64,000 nt of DNA from Actinomycetota bacterium (GTDB lineage: Bacteria; Actinomycetota; CADDZG01; JAHWKV01; JAOPZY01). The position numbers and the translations under genes are program-made. Under the pieces are notes generated by a model, which saw only the letters and a program-made list of their open reading frames with translations, did not search any database and had not been told where the DNA came from. Below are positions 51,842-62,663 of the stretch, piece after piece (within the stretch, counting starts at the first letter, position 1; each line of letters starts with the position of its first letter). The stretch is taken from NCBI GenBank assembly GCA_035765775.1, contig DASTWV010000024.1, forward strand, positions 1 to 64,000, written 5' to 3'.

Positions 51842-53736
51842 TGCGCCTGGTCCGCTATGGCATCGCCGGGCTCAAGGACACCAAGGACCTGCAGGCTTCC
51901 ATCGACGCGGTGGTGGCGGGGGGCTACGCCGCCTGCGAGGTGCAGTTCGTCAAGGAGTTCACCCTGAAGGAACCCGAGGCGGAACGCCTGGGGGCGCTCG
52001 CCGCCGATGCCGGGGTGGCGCTGTCGGTGCACGCCCCCTACTTCGCCCAGCTCACCACCGAGGACCCGGAGCGCCTCACCCAGCACCTGGGGGCGCTGCA
52101 CCACTCCTGCCACCTGGCGTCGCTGATGGGGGCCCGGATCGTCGTGTGCCACCCGGGCTCGCTGTCCGGGGGCACCGATGCCCCGGTGGATCCCGACGCC
52201 GTGCACCGGCGGGTGTCGGCGGCCCTCGACAACCTCGGCCCCCGCATCGCCGGCTTCGGGGTGCGCCTTGGCCTGGAGACCCCCGGGCGCAAATCGCAGT
52301 TCGGCAGCCTGGGCGACATCGCCCTCGTGGTGGCCGAGCACCCGTTCTGCAGCCCGGTGATCGACTTCGCCCACGTGCACGCGGTGTCGGGCGGCGGGCT
52401 GGGATCGGTGGACGCTTTCCGGGCGCTGTTCGCCTTCGTGGCCCGGGAGTTCCGCCCCGAGCACCTGTGGCCGCTGCACTGCCATTTCACCGACAACCGC
52501 TTCGGCCCCGCGGGTGAGATCACCCATGTGCCCTACGGCGAGGGGTCGGTGCGCATCCGGCCCCTGGCCGAGGCGAGCTTCGACGTGGATTTCGCCATGA
52601 CGATGATCTCCGAGGAGCGCTGGGAGACCTCACACCAGGCCATCCTTGCCGACCTGCGCTCCGGGGGCCTCCCGCTGGCCGCCCCCGGGCGGGCGGGGAG
52701 CCGCTTCGCCCGGCTGCTGGAGCCGCCGGCGGCGGGAGCCGACCGCGAGCCGGCGCCGGGCGAGGTTGTCTACGCCCGGCCGTTCCTTCCCCACCCCCTG
52801 CGCCTCGAGCCGCGGGGGCCGGCGTTCATCCTACGGGAGGGACCCCGGGAGGTACGCCTCACCAACCTCGACAAGGTCTTGTTCCCCGACGATGGCTACA
52901 CCAAGGGCGACCTCATCGCCTACTACGACTCCGTCGCCCCGGTGCTCCTGCCCTTCCTGGGCGACCGGCCCGTCGTGATGCAGCGGGTGCCCGATGGCAT
53001 CTACGGCGAGGCGTTCTACGAGAAGCAGGCGCCCAAGGGGGCCCCGGAGTGGGTCCGTACCGTGCCGGTGCCGTCGGGCGGCTCCGACGGCACGCCGAAG
53101 ACGATCGACTTCGTGGTGCCCGATGGCGTCGCCACCCTGGTGTGGCTGGCCCAGATCGCCAGCGTCGAGTGCCACGCCTGGACCAGCGTGTGGCCCAACC
53201 TCGACCAGCCGGACTTCGCCGTGATCGACCTGGACCCCCACGAGCCCATCACCTTCGACGACGTCCGGGCGGTGGGGCGCCTGGTGCATACGGTGTTGGA
53301 GCGCTTCGGCCTGCGGGCGGTGCCCAAGACATCGGGTGGGTCGGGCGTGCAGATCTTCATCCCCCTCCTTCCCGGCCACACCTACCCCGAGGTGCGGGAG
53401 TTCTGCACCGGGGTCGGACGGCTCATCACCGCGGTCTACCCGGAGAAGGCCACCCTGGAGCCGTCGATCCCCCGGCGGGCGGGCAAGGTGTTCATCGACG
53501 CCAACCAGAACGCCAAGGGCAAGACGCTGGTCGCCCCGTACTCGGTGCGCCCCTATCCCGGGGCGCCGGTGTCGATGCCGTTGGCCTGGGAGGAGCTGGA
53601 GGAAGAGTTCCTGCCTGAGGAGTTCACCATCGCCACCGCCTGCGAGCGGATCGCCGGCCGGGGTGACTTCTTCGCCCCTACCCGGCTGTGGCGCCAGGAC
53701 CTGCACCCGGCGCTGGCACAGCTGCGCGGGACGTAA
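51841..53736 (+). CDS. Fusion: endonuclease IV-like TIM barrel plus LigD-type primase/polymerase domain
   Basis: The 631-residue protein has two halves. Residues ~1-275 are an AP-endonuclease-2/endonuclease IV-like TIM barrel with ordered metal-ligand candidates: His64 (SVHAPY), His104 (CHPGS), Glu146 (LETPG), Asp175 and His178 (VIDFAHVH), His215, and His229 in HVPYGEG. Residues ~330-631 are a LigD PolDom: TNLDKVLFPDDGYTKGDLIAYY, catalytic Asp463/Asp465 (VIDLDP), TSGGSGVQIF and Asp553 (VFIDANQN). No ligase, phosphoesterase or Ku domain is present, and no ku gene is in the window. Gapped-end or abasic-site repair synthesis is inferred. GTG 51841 shares one base with the stop of the RpiB-like gene. 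Confidence 0.85.
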   Translation: MRLVRYGIAGLKDTKDLQASIDAVVAGGYAACEVQFVKEFTLKEPEAERLGALAADAGVALSVHAPYFAQLTTEDPERLTQHLGALHHSCHLASLMGARIVVCHPGSLSGGTDAPVDPDAVHRRVSAALDNLGPRIAGFGVRLGLETPGRKSQFGSLGDIALVVAEHPFCSPVIDFAHVHAVSGGGLGSVDAFRALFAFVAREFRPEHLWPLHCHFTDNRFGPAGEITHVPYGEGSVRIRPLAEASFDVDFAMTMISEERWETSHQAILADLRSGGLPLAAPGRAGSRFARLLEPPAAGADREPAPGEVVYARPFLPHPLRLEPRGPAFILREGPREVRLTNLDKVLFPDDGYTKGDLIAYYDSVAPVLLPFLGDRPVVMQRVPDGIYGEAFYEKQAPKGAPEWVRTVPVPSGGSDGTPKTIDFVVPDGVATLVWLAQIASVECHAWTSVWPNLDQPDFAVIDLDPHEPITFDDVRAVGRLVHTVLERFGLRAVPKTSGGSGVQIFIPLLPGHTYPEVREFCTGVGRLITAVYPEKATLEPSIPRRAGKVFIDANQNAKGKTLVAPYSVRPYPGAPVSMPLAWEELEEEFLPEEFTIATACERIAGRGDFFAPTRLWRQDLHPALAQLRGT

Positions 53737-53822
53737 GCCGGCGGCGCGGTGCCATGTCGGTCGCCATGAGCCTGCCGGGCGAGGGTGACTCCGGCCCGCG
53801 AGGCACCACTAGAATCGCCGCC

Positions 53823-54860
53823 ATGGATCTGACCTGGCAGGCCGTGCTCGGTCGGCTGTTCACCGGCACCGCCCTGACCCAGGACGAGGCCGCGTGGGCC
53901 ATGGAGCAGATCATGGCGGGCGACACCTCGCCGCCGGTCTTCGGGGCCTTCGTCGCTGCCCTCCGGACCAAGGGGGAGACCGTAGACGAGATCGCCGGCC
54001 TGGTGGCGACCATGCGCCGGCGGGCGCTGCGCGTCCCGCTCGACCCGGCCTGGGGGCCGGTGGTGGACACCTGCGGCACCGGCGGGGACCGGGTGGGCAC
54101 CATCAACGCCTCCACCATGGCCGCGTTCGTGGTGGCCGGCGCCGGGGGGAAGGTGGCCAAGCACGGCAACCGGGCGGCCTCCAGCGCGTGCGGCTCCGCC
54201 GATCTCCTGGAGGCCCTCGGGGTCAGGATCGAGCTGGGGCCCGATGCCGTTGCGGCTTGTATCGACGAGGCGGGCATGGGGTTCTGCTTCGCCCCGGTCT
54301 TCCACCCCTCCTACCGCCACGCCGGCCCGCCCCGCCGGGAGCTCGGCGTGCCCACCGTCTTCAACTTCCTGGGGCCCCTCACCAACCCGGCGGGCGCCCG
54401 GCACCAGGCGCTCGGGGTCTCCGACCCGGCGATGGCCCCCAAGATGGCCGAGGTGCTGGCGCGCACGGGCAGCGTCCACGCCCTGGTGCTGCACGCGTGC
54501 GACGGCCTGGACGAGATCACCCTCTCCGGCCCCACCACCGTGTGGGAACTGAAGGGCGGTGCGGTGCACGAGGGCGTGATCGATCCGGCGGCGCTCGGCC
54601 TGGCCACCGTCGCCCGGGAGGCCCTGAAGGGCGGTACCCCGGCGCAGAACGCCGCGGTCACCACCGCGGTGCTGAGCGGCGAGCCGGGGCCGGCCCGGGA
54701 CTTCGCCATGGTGAACGCGGCGGCCGCGCTGGTGGCCTGCGACCGTGCTGCCGACCTGGCAGAGGGTCTGGCTCAGGCGGCGGAGTCGCTCGACTCCGGC
54801 CGGGCGGCCGGGTGCCTCACCCGCCTGCGCCAGGCGTCCAACCGCCTCGCTCCTCGCTGA
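53823..54860 (+). CDS. trpD: Anthranilate phosphoribosyltransferase
   Basis: TrpD joins anthranilate and PRPP in tryptophan synthesis. The 345-residue product has the PRPP site VVDTCGTGGDRVGTINAST, KHGNRAASSACGSADLLEALG and FNFLGPLTNPAGARHQALGV. No other trp gene is nearby. ATG 53823 follows homology. Its last 44 bases overlap the 3' end of the convergent membrane fusion gene. Confidence 0.94.
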   Translation: MDLTWQAVLGRLFTGTALTQDEAAWAMEQIMAGDTSPPVFGAFVAALRTKGETVDEIAGLVATMRRRALRVPLDPAWGPVVDTCGTGGDRVGTINASTMAAFVVAGAGGKVAKHGNRAASSACGSADLLEALGVRIELGPDAVAACIDEAGMGFCFAPVFHPSYRHAGPPRRELGVPTVFNFLGPLTNPAGARHQALGVSDPAMAPKMAEVLARTGSVHALVLHACDGLDEITLSGPTTVWELKGGAVHEGVIDPAALGLATVAREALKGGTPAQNAAVTTAVLSGEPGPARDFAMVNAAAALVACDRAADLAEGLAQAAESLDSGRAAGCLTRLRQASNRLAPR

Positions 54861-57795
54861 CCTCAAACAGGCCATCGGCCGGGCGGGGCCCCACCGGGAC
54901 CGGGGTGGGGCCCACCACCGGGGAGGGCCCCTTCGCCACCGAGCGCACCACCGCCATGGCGGCGGCCGGGAAGTGGCCGCGCCCGTCGTACACGAAATAC
55001 CGGGGGCGCCAGGCCGGCTCGTAGGCCTCGTCCGGCTCCCAGGGGTGCTCCACGGGCATCGCCCGGGAGAGCTGCTCCAGCAGCCAGCGCTGCGCCCGGC
55101 CGCCGAGCCCGTCGGCCTCGCGGCGGATGATGGTGCGCCGGGTGACGGAGAAGTTGAGGCTCAGGGTACGCACGCCGATGTCGCCCAGGTGCCGGATGGT
55201 GTGCACCATCAGCAGGTCGGTCAGCTCCTCGGGGACCGCCCGGGTGGTCCGGCGTACCTGGTCCAGCGTGTAGCCGCCGATCGCCGGGGCGGGCACGAAC
55301 TGGGCGAGGGCGGCCGGGTGGCCGTCCGGGCCGACGGCCACCGCCAGCACGATGTCGTCATCCTGCGGGTCGAAAAGCCGGCCGAGGGTCATCGAGAAGC
55401 GGCGCTCGCTGGTCGGCCGGTGGGACTCGGTCGCCAGGCCGCGCAGCTCGGACTCCACGAAGGGATCCAGGTGGGCCGGGCTCAGGAACTCGACGTGGTA
55501 CCCGGCGGCGGCGGGCCCCGCCACGCGCCGGCGGAGGTCCTCCCAGCGGGCATGGTCGAGGTCGAAGCGGTGGCAGTCCACGATCGCCTCGTCGCCGGCG
55601 TACAGCTCCCGCATCCCGGCGCAGTGGTAGATCGGCAGCCAGTCGTCCGACGCCCCCAACACCGTGACCGGCCAGCCCCGGGCGTCGGCGTAGCGGTGGA
55701 ACTCCTCCCAGGCCTGCTCCCGCTCCCAGCTCGGGCCCACCGGGTCGGGGGACACGACGCACACCCGGCCCACCACCGAGTAGGGCACGACGGTGTCGCC
55801 CGAGAAGAAGAGCTCCTTGTCGCTGCGCAGCGCGAAGTAGCTGAAGGACTCGTCGCCGTAGCGCTCCACCAGCTCGCGGGCCCGGGCGAGGCCCGAACCC
55901 GGGCGGCGCCGGGCGGCGTGCACCGGGCGGAAGATCGTCCAGGCTGCCAGGGCGACCAGCCCGCCAGCCACGGCCAGCATCACCGGGCTGAGGAAGTCGT
56001 TGAGCCGGTCGGGGAGCGCCACGGACTGGGCGCCCACCAGCCGGCCGGTCACCGCGGCGACCGCCCGCCCCAGTGGCAGCCGCGGCTTCATGACCACCTC
56101 GACCGCGACGGTGGCGGCCACGATCACCGAGATGCTGCCGGCCACTGCGGTGCGGAACGCCACCCGGAAGCCGCCCGGGGCCGCCCCACCCCGGAACGCC
56201 GCCCGTTGGCTCCCCAGGTAGGCCGCGACCGCGAGGGCGAGGATCGCCGCGGCGACCTCGACGCCCTTCGCCAGGTGCAGCACCGCCGATCCGCCCAGGA
56301 GGACGAGTGCGGTTCCCCAGGCCCGCCGCCCGCCCCGCCGGACGCCTCCCGAGAGGAAGAGCAGACCGAGGCCGGCGAGCGCCACCAGGGCAGCGGCGGC
56401 CTCCGGGACGGCAAGGGGGACGATCGTGCGCAGCCAGTGCAGGCGGACGAAGAGGGGCGGCACGGCGGCCGAGGCGAGGTTGAGCAGCCCGACCAGGGCG
56501 ATGGCCGTGGCCGCCCGGGCTCGCACCACCCGCTGGTGGCCGACCCGCTCGGTGGGCGGGGGCCAGGACGGCCCGCCCGGTAGGGAGGCGACGACCACCG
56601 GGCGGGGGCTCGCGCGCTCGGGCCGCACCGCAAGGCGCTCGAGGGCGGAGCCCGCCGGGAGCGGCTGGCGGCCGGAGACCAGGCGGACGTGCAGGTCAGA
56701 GCCCGCCTCGAGCTCGACCCACGAGGTCTGGCGCACGGACCGGAAGACGGGCAGCGGCCCCAGCCGGCTCCGGCTCTCCTCGACCGCCTCGGCACAGCAG
56801 CCGGCATTGGCGTAAAACCCGTCACCCAGGGGGGCCAGCTCGGCTAGGTGGGTATGGCCAGTGATCATGCCGGCGTAGCCCTCGCGGACGCGGGCCAGGG
56901 CATCGGCACGCGCGGCGTCGTTGCGCCCCCGGCGGGCGGAGAGGATGGCCACGTTGGACGTCGCCTCCCACACCGCGTAGGCGGCCAGGGCCATGGCGGC
57001 CACCACCAGCACCAGGTCGGCCACCACCAGGCCGCCGATGAACAGGAACGGGTTCGGCCACCGGGCGATGCGCGCCCCGATCTCGGTCTTGGACAAAAGG
57101 GTGAGCGTGAGGGGCAGCTTCAGCAGCAGGGCGACCAGGAAGGGCAGGGCCAGCCATTTCAGGTGGCGGGCGAAGCGCCGGAAGGTCAGCCGGGAGGCAA
57201 CGTAGCGGGGGAAGGCCAGGCCATCCGCCAGGTTCACCGAGTCGTCGAAGATCTCGTAGTGGGTGACCACCGGGCCCAGGTGCCGGGTGACATGCAGGCC
57301 GAAGGGGATGTCCAGGGGATCCCGGGGATCGGTGAAGGCGTTGGGCGGGTCGAGGCGGTGCCCATGCTCCACCCGGACCTTGCGGGTGCCCGATCCGGTC
57401 TCGATCTCGAGCTCGAGGGCGAGGGCCAGGTCGCAGCCGAAGGCCTCGGCGACCGCCCCGGCGGCGCCGCCGTCCCAGGCGAGGCGGGAGTCATGGTTGC
57501 CCAGCAGGTAGACCACCCGGCGCCCCGGGCCGGCGGCGAAGCTGCGCACCGCGGCGGTCAGGCGGCCCTCGTGCTGCAGGACCGCCCGGATGTCCGGGGG
57601 CGTGCCCAGGGCTAGCTCGATGATGTCGCCGTTCAAGACCAGCACGCCGGGGCCCGAGGCCCGCTCGATGGCGGCGGTGAGGTCCTCGACCGGCTGGTGG
57701 GAGCCATGCCCGCCGAGGTGCAGGTCGTTGGCCACCAGCACCCGCCCCCCAGCGGGGACGGGCAGCTCCAGGAGATCGACAACTGTGGCGCCCAT
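54817..57795 (-). CDS. Fusion: calcineurin-like phosphoesterase, membrane domain, MprF-like DUF2156 domain
   Basis: A 992-residue protein. The phosphoesterase motifs are DLH (24-26), NGD (55-57), GNHD (99-102), HGH (144-146) and GHTH (313-316), with two membrane spans (~213-236, ~251-276) inserted between HGH and GHTH. About five or six further spans follow (~428-622). Residues ~640-945 are a DUF2156/LPG_synthase_C acyltransferase-like domain: ERYGDESFSYFALRSDKELFFS, VSLNFSVTRR-like, and WRPRYFVYDG. DUF2156 domains in MprF/LysX transfer aminoacyl groups from tRNA to phosphatidylglycerol. No lysyl-tRNA synthetase is fused, unlike LysX. Joint action on membrane lipids is inferred. Confidence 0.8.
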   Translation of the reverse strand: MGATVVDLLELPVPAGGRVLVANDLHLGGHGSHQPVEDLTAAIERASGPGVLVLNGDIIELALGTPPDIRAVLQHEGRLTAAVRSFAAGPGRRVVYLLGNHDSRLAWDGGAAGAVAEAFGCDLALALELEIETGSGTRKVRVEHGHRLDPPNAFTDPRDPLDIPFGLHVTRHLGPVVTHYEIFDDSVNLADGLAFPRYVASRLTFRRFARHLKWLALPFLVALLLKLPLTLTLLSKTEIGARIARWPNPFLFIGGLVVADLVLVVAAMALAAYAVWEATSNVAILSARRGRNDAARADALARVREGYAGMITGHTHLAELAPLGDGFYANAGCCAEAVEESRSRLGPLPVFRSVRQTSWVELEAGSDLHVRLVSGRQPLPAGSALERLAVRPERASPRPVVVASLPGGPSWPPPTERVGHQRVVRARAATAIALVGLLNLASAAVPPLFVRLHWLRTIVPLAVPEAAAALVALAGLGLLFLSGGVRRGGRRAWGTALVLLGGSAVLHLAKGVEVAAAILALAVAAYLGSQRAAFRGGAAPGGFRVAFRTAVAGSISVIVAATVAVEVVMKPRLPLGRAVAAVTGRLVGAQSVALPDRLNDFLSPVMLAVAGGLVALAAWTIFRPVHAARRRPGSGLARARELVERYGDESFSYFALRSDKELFFSGDTVVPYSVVGRVCVVSPDPVGPSWEREQAWEEFHRYADARGWPVTVLGASDDWLPIYHCAGMRELYAGDEAIVDCHRFDLDHARWEDLRRRVAGPAAAGYHVEFLSPAHLDPFVESELRGLATESHRPTSERRFSMTLGRLFDPQDDDIVLAVAVGPDGHPAALAQFVPAPAIGGYTLDQVRRTTRAVPEELTDLLMVHTIRHLGDIGVRTLSLNFSVTRRTIIRREADGLGGRAQRWLLEQLSRAMPVEHPWEPDEAYEPAWRPRYFVYDGRGHFPAAAMAVVRSVAKGPSPVVGPTPVPVGPRPADGLFEVSEERGGWTPGAGG

Positions 57796-61300: not shown

Positions 61301-61732
61301 CTACTCGGCGAGGTCGGTGATGTCCTCCTCACCGTCGGGCTGTCGGGCGTGCAGCAGGGCGTCGAAGTGTTCGGCCAGGCGCCCGTTGGTCTGCAGCACA
61401 TTCAAGAAGGCGTCCCGGGGCAGGACCAGCAGCTCGCACTCGCCGACCGCCCGGGCCCGGCGGTGGTGGGTGGTGTTGAGCAGCAGCGAGATCTCGCCGA
61501 AGAAGTCGCCCTCCCCGAGCCGGGCCACCACCTGCCCGGCCCCGTCGTCGATCAGGACCTCGCCGGTGAGCACGATGTAGAGGGCGTCGCCGGGCAGGCC
61601 CGGCTCGAAAATGATGCTGCCGTCGCGCCAGACGAGGTTCATGCTCTCGCCGACGATGGCCAGGAGGCTGCGTTCGTCCAGGGGTGCAAACTCCGGCACC
61701 CGCTGCAAGGACTGCACCAGACTGTGCGGCAT
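61301..61732 (-). CDS. Cyclic nucleotide-binding domain protein
   Basis: The 143-residue protein is a single CNMP/CRP-type beta-roll (IIFEPGLPGDALYIVLTGEVLI, GDFFGEISLLLNTTHHRRARA), with the phosphate-binding cassette GEISLL...RRARA partly conserved, and an acidic tail. No DNA-binding domain is present, so it probably acts as a stand-alone sensor. Divergent from the phosphoesterase gene at 61797 (64-base gap). Confidence 0.82.
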   Translation of the reverse strand: MPHSLVQSLQRVPEFAPLDERSLLAIVGESMNLVWRDGSIIFEPGLPGDALYIVLTGEVLIDDGAGQVVARLGEGDFFGEISLLLNTTHHRRARAVGECELLVLPRDAFLNVLQTNGRLAEHFDALLHARQPDGEEDITDLAE

Positions 61733-61796
61733 TCTCCGCGCCCCGACCTCGTTCCCGCCGACTATCCTACGGGGAGCGCCCCTCTGCGGAAACCAC

Positions 61797-62663
61797 GTGG
61801 CCTACTCGCAAATCCCGCTACGCATCGCCCATATCTCCGACCTCCACGCCGGCGAGGTCACCTTCCAGCACGACGTGATGGCGAAGGTCATCGAGGCGAT
61901 CAACCGCATGGCCCCCGACGTGGTGGTGGTGGCGGGCGACGTCACCGCCGCCGGCTACGAGGACGAGTACGTCGAAGCCGCCGCCATCCTGGCCCAGATC
62001 GAGCCCCCCAAGATCATCATCCCGGGCAACCACGACGCCCGCAACGTGGGCTGGGTGCACTTCGAGCAGTACTTCGGCGAGCGCTTCTCCCGGCTGCGCC
62101 AGGCGTTCGACCCCCAGCGGGCGGAGCGCCTGCGGGCGACCGGCTTCGTCGTGGTGGGGGTGGACTCCTCCGAGCCCGACCTGGACGAGGGCCGGGTCGG
62201 CCGGGATCGCTACCAGTGGATGCGCAGCCAGTTCGAGGACCCCCCCGCCATGCGGGAGGACATCAAGATCTTCGCCATCCACCACCACCTGGTGTCCGTC
62301 CCGGGGACCGGCCGGGAGCGCAACATCGTCATGGATGCCGGCGACCTTCTGGCCCAGCTCACCACCCTGGACATCGACCTGATCCTGTCCGGCCACAAGC
62401 ACGTCCCGTTCTTCTGGGGGATCAACGGCATCCTGATCGCCAACTCCGGGACCTGCTCCACCAAGCGCCTGCGGGGCCTCACGCCGTCGTCGTGGAACGA
62501 GGTCGAGATCGACGCCTCGACGATCAAGGTCTTCCTGCACTACCCGGACGGCCGCCGGGAGCTGGCGGTGATCTTCTCCCGCAAGACCCGGGCGCTCACC
62601 CGCGAGGCGTTCACCATGACGCAGGATTTCGTGACGTCGAACCGCCTCTCGGCAGTCATCTGA
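61797..62663 (+). CDS. Calcineurin-like metallophosphoesterase
   Basis: The 288-residue phosphoesterase has the full motif set: ISDLH (Asp15, His17), AGDVT, GNHD, IHHHL and SGHKH. This is the class of cAMP phosphodiesterases (CpdA-like) and of other small phosphodiesterases. Its neighbour across the divergent promoter is a cyclic-nucleotide-binding protein, which makes a cyclic-nucleotide substrate attractive but unproven. GTG 61797; the M48 gene overlaps its stop. Confidence 0.87.
   Translation: MAYSQIPLRIAHISDLHAGEVTFQHDVMAKVIEAINRMAPDVVVVAGDVTAAGYEDEYVEAAAILAQIEPPKIIIPGNHDARNVGWVHFEQYFGERFSRLRQAFDPQRAERLRATGFVVVGVDSSEPDLDEGRVGRDRYQWMRSQFEDPPAMREDIKIFAIHHHLVSVPGTGRERNIVMDAGDLLAQLTTLDIDLILSGHKHVPFFWGINGILIANSGTCSTKRLRGLTPSSWNEVEIDASTIKVFLHYPDGRRELAVIFSRKTRALTREAFTMTQDFVTSNRLSAVI

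Follow-up and report, generated by a model that had tools for sequence, protein, structure and literature searches.

An LpxH-like phosphoesterase with a membrane hairpin fused to a LysX/MprF-type synthase: a variant architecture of known parts in Actinomycetota

The 64,000-nucleotide stretch of actinobacterial DNA analysed here, hereafter the window, contains a gene whose product seems to unite a calcineurin-type phosphoesterase, several membrane helices and a domain of the type that aminoacylates membrane lipids. Such a locus raises the question of whether this order of domains is real and, if so, what two putative active sites do on a single membrane protein. The initial annotation, made from the sequence alone, had supposed that lipid dephosphorylation or hydrolysis could be coupled to lipid aminoacylation.

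The gene is one uninterrupted open reading frame with an ATG start and without internal stop (Table 1). In its product, Pfam recognised a Metallophos domain (PF00149) at residues 18-159 (E 3.7e-6, 28 bits vs a gathering score of 21.5) and LPG_synthase_C (PF09924, formerly DUF2156) at residues 640-936 (E 1.3e-49, 169 bits), the latter over the entire profile (1-298 of 298). The five calcineurin-family motifs reported by the initial annotation are indeed complete, between residues 24 and 316, and the seven ligands of the two-metal centre (D24, H26, D57, N100, H144, H314 and H316) are all present. The two membrane helices that it had placed between the HGH and GHTH motifs were recovered both by hydropathy, which gave two hydrophobic stretches separating motif IV from motif V (about 212-235 and 246-280), and as helices of the AlphaFold2 model; the further spans expected ahead of DUF2156 correspond to hydrophobic segments at 427-623, where six transmembrane helices are followed by the full-length PF09924 domain.

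Table 1. Position of the fusion gene and of its features in the window
Feature	Coordinates	Strand	Remarks
Whole fusion ORF (992 aa), comprising an LpxH-like phosphoesterase with its membrane hairpin, six TM helices and LPG_synthase_C	54817..57795	-	
Phosphoesterase, N-terminal part, residues 1-190, motifs I-IV	57226..57795	-	PF00149 at residues 18-159; LpxH structural match at residues 18-377
Motif I, D24-L-H26, metal ligands	57718..57726	-	
Motif II, G56-D57, bridging metal ligand	57625..57630	-	
Motif III, G99-N100-H101-D102	57490..57501	-	
Motif IV, E143-H144-G-H146	57358..57369	-	
Membrane hairpin, helices 192-236 and 249-281, at the site of the LpxH helical insertion	56953..57222	-	Hydropathy, AlphaFold2, LpxH comparison
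Phosphoesterase, C-terminal part, residues 293-405	56581..56919	-	
Motif V, G313-H314-T-H316, metal ligands	56848..56859	-	
Six TM helices, residues 417-621, counterpart of MprF's last TM block and of the LysX TM block	55933..56547	-	Residues 415-954 match MprF 7duw; partial NCBIfam match to LysX/MprF
LPG_synthase_C (DUF2156) double-GNAT synthase, residues 636-954	54934..55890	-	Pfam; L-PGS and A-PGS structures matched at Z about 30
D845..R848, kept; align with P. aeruginosa A-PGS D765/R768	55252..55263	-	
A924, Lys in all other relatives and in the MprF structures compared	55024..55026	-	

Each half also exists on its own in other genomes, and two neighbouring genes could have been joined by an error of sequencing or assembly. 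This explanation, like a frameshift, is refuted by full-length copies of the architecture in many independent assemblies and in isolates. Within the family of the window, the one further genome sampled encodes the same protein over its full length at 68% identity, and many other genomes have the same architecture at 31-50% identity. A match to the fusion protein is present in 55 of the 148 genomes of one order (that of genome G241), many at full length, and a scan of named genomes gave 80 loci, nearly all of them full length, in metagenome-assembled genomes (MAGs) of Acidimicrobiia and other Actinobacteria and in isolates of Micromonospora, Dactylosporangium and Acidiferrimicrobium that carry the full-length fusion. 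Two of the 80 loci stand under Acidobacteria MAG titles, which binning errors may explain. The initial annotation knew of no described protein with this order, and our search of the open-access literature for the phosphoesterase-hairpin-DUF2156 architecture returned no description either; the gene is a real variant architecture of known parts, undescribed in the literature searched.

The AlphaFold2 model of the fusion protein, for which 73 full-length fusions served as input alignment, has a mean pLDDT of 83.4 and a pTM of 0.79, with two long helices at 192-236 and 249-281 and six more between 417 and 621. It was compared with solved structures by selecting candidates with Foldseek and re-aligning them. 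The top match of the front half is E. coli LpxH with lipid X (Z 18.1, rmsd 3.6, 213 residues aligned), LpxH-lipid X complexes being the best matches and unrelated phosphoesterases following at a Z of about 14. The search of solved structures with the phosphoesterase sequence profile gave no hit at E 0.01, so that the link to LpxH is a structural one only. LpxH has helices inserted between motifs IV and V that enclose the acyl chains of lipid X next to its two-metal site (PMC5016852); in the window protein, the membrane hairpin is found there. For residues 415-954, MprF (7duw) ranks first (Z 31.2 over 437 residues), and the modelled synthase fold matches L-PGS at Z 30. The eight membrane helices of the model put both catalytic domains on one side of the membrane, a point that the initial annotation had left to topology prediction, and this side would be the cytosol because the synthase requires aminoacyl-tRNA. 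The flanks and the short inner loops are enriched in basic residues (for example RRGGRR at 486-491 and RPVHAARRR at 623-631); the outer loops are slightly positive too.

NCBIfam ranks the rear half nearest to LysX and then to MprF, both far under their cut-offs: with the LysX profile, the window copy scored 211 bits and four relatives 268-305 for a cut-off of 742, and with the MprF profile the window copy scored 185.5 bits for a cut-off of 600. In its make-up, the protein corresponds to the membrane block and synthase of a LysX-like enzyme, with an N-terminal phosphoesterase added and the tRNA synthetase missing. The view of the DUF2156 domain as one that aminoacylates phosphatidylglycerol stands as far as the rear half is MprF-like, but the assumed acceptor may be wrong, because some LysX-type enzymes, the closest studied relatives, aminoacylate diacylglycerol: LysX of Corynebacterium and of two mycobacteria makes lysyl-diacylglycerol, not lysyl-phosphatidylglycerol (PMC10580965). 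A lack of flippase in the window genome was considered and rejected, four separate PF03706 proteins being present.

Across the family, the two halves have been kept very unequally. When the phosphoesterase site was scored on eight residues (the seven metal ligands and H101), all eight were found in 7 of the 72 full-length named fusions and seven in 2 others, and 60 of the 72 had three or fewer, while the synthase is nearly invariant. On the phosphoesterase-domain tree, the fusions form one clade (support 0.8) that includes a single free-standing protein; intact fusions lie near the base of this clade, most dead ones form a large derived group, and parsimony requires 5 changes of the site, or 7 losses if regain is barred. 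The free-standing copy inside the clade (L032, genome G049) may be a secondary split or be close to the pre-fusion form. The persistence of domain and hairpin in so many fusions with a lost site would suit a phosphoesterase half that is mainly a non-catalytic membrane module, positioning or regulating the synthase in place of the MprF flippase subdomain, with catalysis surviving as a remnant in a few lineages. The separate model of one dead member does keep the LpxH fold (Z 16), and the catalytic domain of MprF depends on its membrane part in vivo (PMC8131360). We nevertheless consider this explanation rather unlikely, since all metal ligands are kept in the window protein, in its 68% relative and in several others, which would be unexpected without selection on catalysis, and since the free-standing hairpin phosphoesterases are intact (seven ligands in 20 of 20). 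Even less probable is a phosphoesterase half acting on a nucleotide or another soluble phosphate. Calcineurin-type enzymes have many soluble substrates, and the family keeps the catalytic His that is replaced by Arg in LpxH, Arg80 being specific to LpxH (PMC5016852); a membrane substrate is however what the hairpin of two membrane helices and the LpxH-like fold suggest, and this fold, as modelled, makes a lipid more plausible.

The opposite change is seen in the lineage of the window. Among the other 76 fusions, 79 columns of the synthase are invariant in at least 95% of the sequences. The window protein departs from the invariant residue at 19 of these columns and its 68% relative at 22, with 14 positions common to both; for the other 76 the median is 0 and the highest count 7. 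At position 924, the window protein has Ala and the relative Met, where all other fusions, the 20 further actinobacterial DUF2156 proteins and the three solved MprF synthases of the comparison have Lys; DLMR has become DQVR and K752 Glu or Asp, again at positions invariant in the 76 other fusions. In this lineage, defined by two sequences only, the pair is moreover more alike in the phosphoesterase (identity of 0.72) than in the synthase (0.66), the only such close pair among those listed, whereas 215 other pairs average 0.54 and 0.77, respectively. The simplest reading of these sequences is that the phosphoesterase is what selection maintains here, the synthase having weakened or shifted in specificity. 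The same replacements would also fit a phosphoesterase whose dead synthase half is kept as a membrane anchor and makes no aminoacyl lipid, a possibility that we take seriously while holding it to be on balance doubtful: the domain is of full length and free of stops, its modelled fold is that of L-PGS, and it keeps D845 and R848, aligned with A-PGS residues D765 and R768 that we take to be essential, together with the acidic pair D735 and E736. Because these four residues and the fold are kept, an altered specificity is as possible as a loss. Low-confidence loops of the synthase model were rejected as a sign of decay, the same loops being low in the model of a member with a conserved synthase. 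As for a loss of catalytic residues, the objection foreseen by the initial annotation, it does not concern the complete phosphoesterase site and applies in part to the synthase, where D845 and R848 remain and several residues invariant in relatives are gone.

The fusion gene stands alone and its neighbourhood points to no pathway. Downstream lies a convergent gene of glycosyltransferase family 3 (TrpD-like, 53688-54857) and upstream a divergent gene for a BldD-C-terminal-like protein; the fusion and TrpD-like genes overlap by 44 bases (54817-54860). One neighbouring membrane protein, resembling NuoN by eye, is common to 33 of the 80 fusion loci. Elsewhere in the window, the forward strand carries at 51850-53733 a single open reading frame with an AP-endonuclease-2/xylose-isomerase-like TIM barrel (PF01261) and a LigD primase-polymerase (PF21686), possibly a repair fusion, and at 61611-62660 a second calcineurin-like phosphoesterase (PF00149, 4e-20), which looks unrelated to the fusion and has beside it, on the reverse strand (61304-61732), a gene for a cyclic-nucleotide-binding-domain protein. 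A pairing in operon of a free-standing hairpin phosphoesterase with a separate DUF2156 gene was rejected, the stretches fetched around the 20 loci, several of them short, giving no DUF2156 match. In four related loci only (L040, L041, L042 and L043), a glycosyltransferase of one cluster adjoins the free-standing phosphoesterase; the L040 copy, the one checked, matches MGDG synthase in Pfam (PF06925), and in L040 and L041 the two genes overlap on the same strand. The MGDG synthase family also uses diacylglycerol. An ArsA/GET3-like ATPase, recognised by eye, is found near the phosphoesterase in six other loci (L044, L049, L037, L039, L048 and L051), in some of them with a DksA-type zinc finger protein in between.

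Taken together, these data lead us to propose, with a probability of about 0.45, a membrane-anchored fusion facing the cytosol, in which a lipid phosphoesterase of the LpxH fold is joined to a lipid aminoacyltransferase of the LysX/MprF type that depends on aminoacyl-tRNA; lineages would later have lost or changed one of the halves. Its architecture, conservation, topology and order of events on the tree come from sequence and model; the substrates, the passing of a product and the activities are inferred. The ancestral fusion most likely produced a lipid acceptor and then aminoacylated it. It would have arisen with both sites complete, the phosphoesterase releasing diacylglycerol, or phosphatidylglycerol if the phosphate of the latter was the substrate; this product would pass to the synthase, and an amino acid from a charged tRNA would be added to a lipid hydroxyl. 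In most descendants the phosphoesterase would then have become a catalytically dead, fold-preserving module. In the lineage of the window it would have stayed complete while the synthase changed, and for this reason the window copy most likely works mainly as a phosphoesterase at the membrane, its synthase being altered or weakened.

By analogy with the biology of two relatives, we hypothesise that diacylglycerol could be the shared metabolite: an LpxH-like enzyme releasing it from phosphatidic acid would suit both a LysX-type synthase and an MGDG-synthase-like partner. A more precise scenario, in which an ancestral two-step enzyme converted phosphatidic acid into aminoacyl-diacylglycerol and was followed by reciprocal loss, most actinobacterial lineages keeping only the synthase and that of the window the phosphoesterase, with a synthase of new specificity or none, appears improbable to us. 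The window genome has six PAP2-family matches and thus need not depend on the fusion gene for diacylglycerol; a replacement of phosphatidic acid phosphatases by the phosphoesterase was rejected, PAP2 showing the reverse pattern (absent in three dead-fusion genomes, present in intact-fusion ones). The coupling imagined at the outset is to be divided: possible for the ancestor and for those few members that are fully intact, unlikely for the bulk of the family, where so few site residues are left, and doubtful for the window copy, because its synthase changed at positions invariant elsewhere. Since most fusions lost the phosphoesterase metal site, coupling cannot be what maintains the architecture today. 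The idea is directly testable because the versions of two cultured hosts, Dactylosporangium siamense and Micromonospora sp., have both sites complete.

With a flippase as partner in MprF and a tRNA synthetase in LysX, the phosphoesterase is a third kind of partner in the lipid-aminoacylation family, and the fusion suggests where the acceptor lipid might come from. It also provides, on a single scaffold, a natural gradation of phosphoesterases from active to dead, and one lineage that shows the opposite change. LpxH, the closest solved fold of the front half, has the same seven metal ligands and a membrane-directed insertion between motifs IV and V; it differs from the window protein by lacking a significant sequence match, by an Arg in motif III where the latter keeps the catalytic H101, by a helical insertion in place of a true membrane hairpin, and by a lipid A pathway that is Gram-negative. 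The free-standing actinobacterial hairpin phosphoesterases (L032-L051) share domain, hairpin and the HG(N/D/H) and GHTH motifs, but are unfused. LysX, the bifunctional lysyl-lipid synthase and lysyl-tRNA synthetase of Actinobacteria, has the same six-helix membrane block followed by LPG_synthase_C, whereas the window protein begins with a phosphoesterase and ends about 35 residues after the synthase, without the C-terminal tRNA synthetase. In the flippase/synthase MprF, the last TM block and the synthase superpose on those of the window protein (Z 31), in which the phosphoesterase takes the place of the N-terminal flippase subdomain. LysX2 (Rv1619) of M. tuberculosis is another variant MprF-like protein with an unusual membrane part, but its synthase is reported to be extracytoplasmic and it has no phosphoesterase (PMC8974105).
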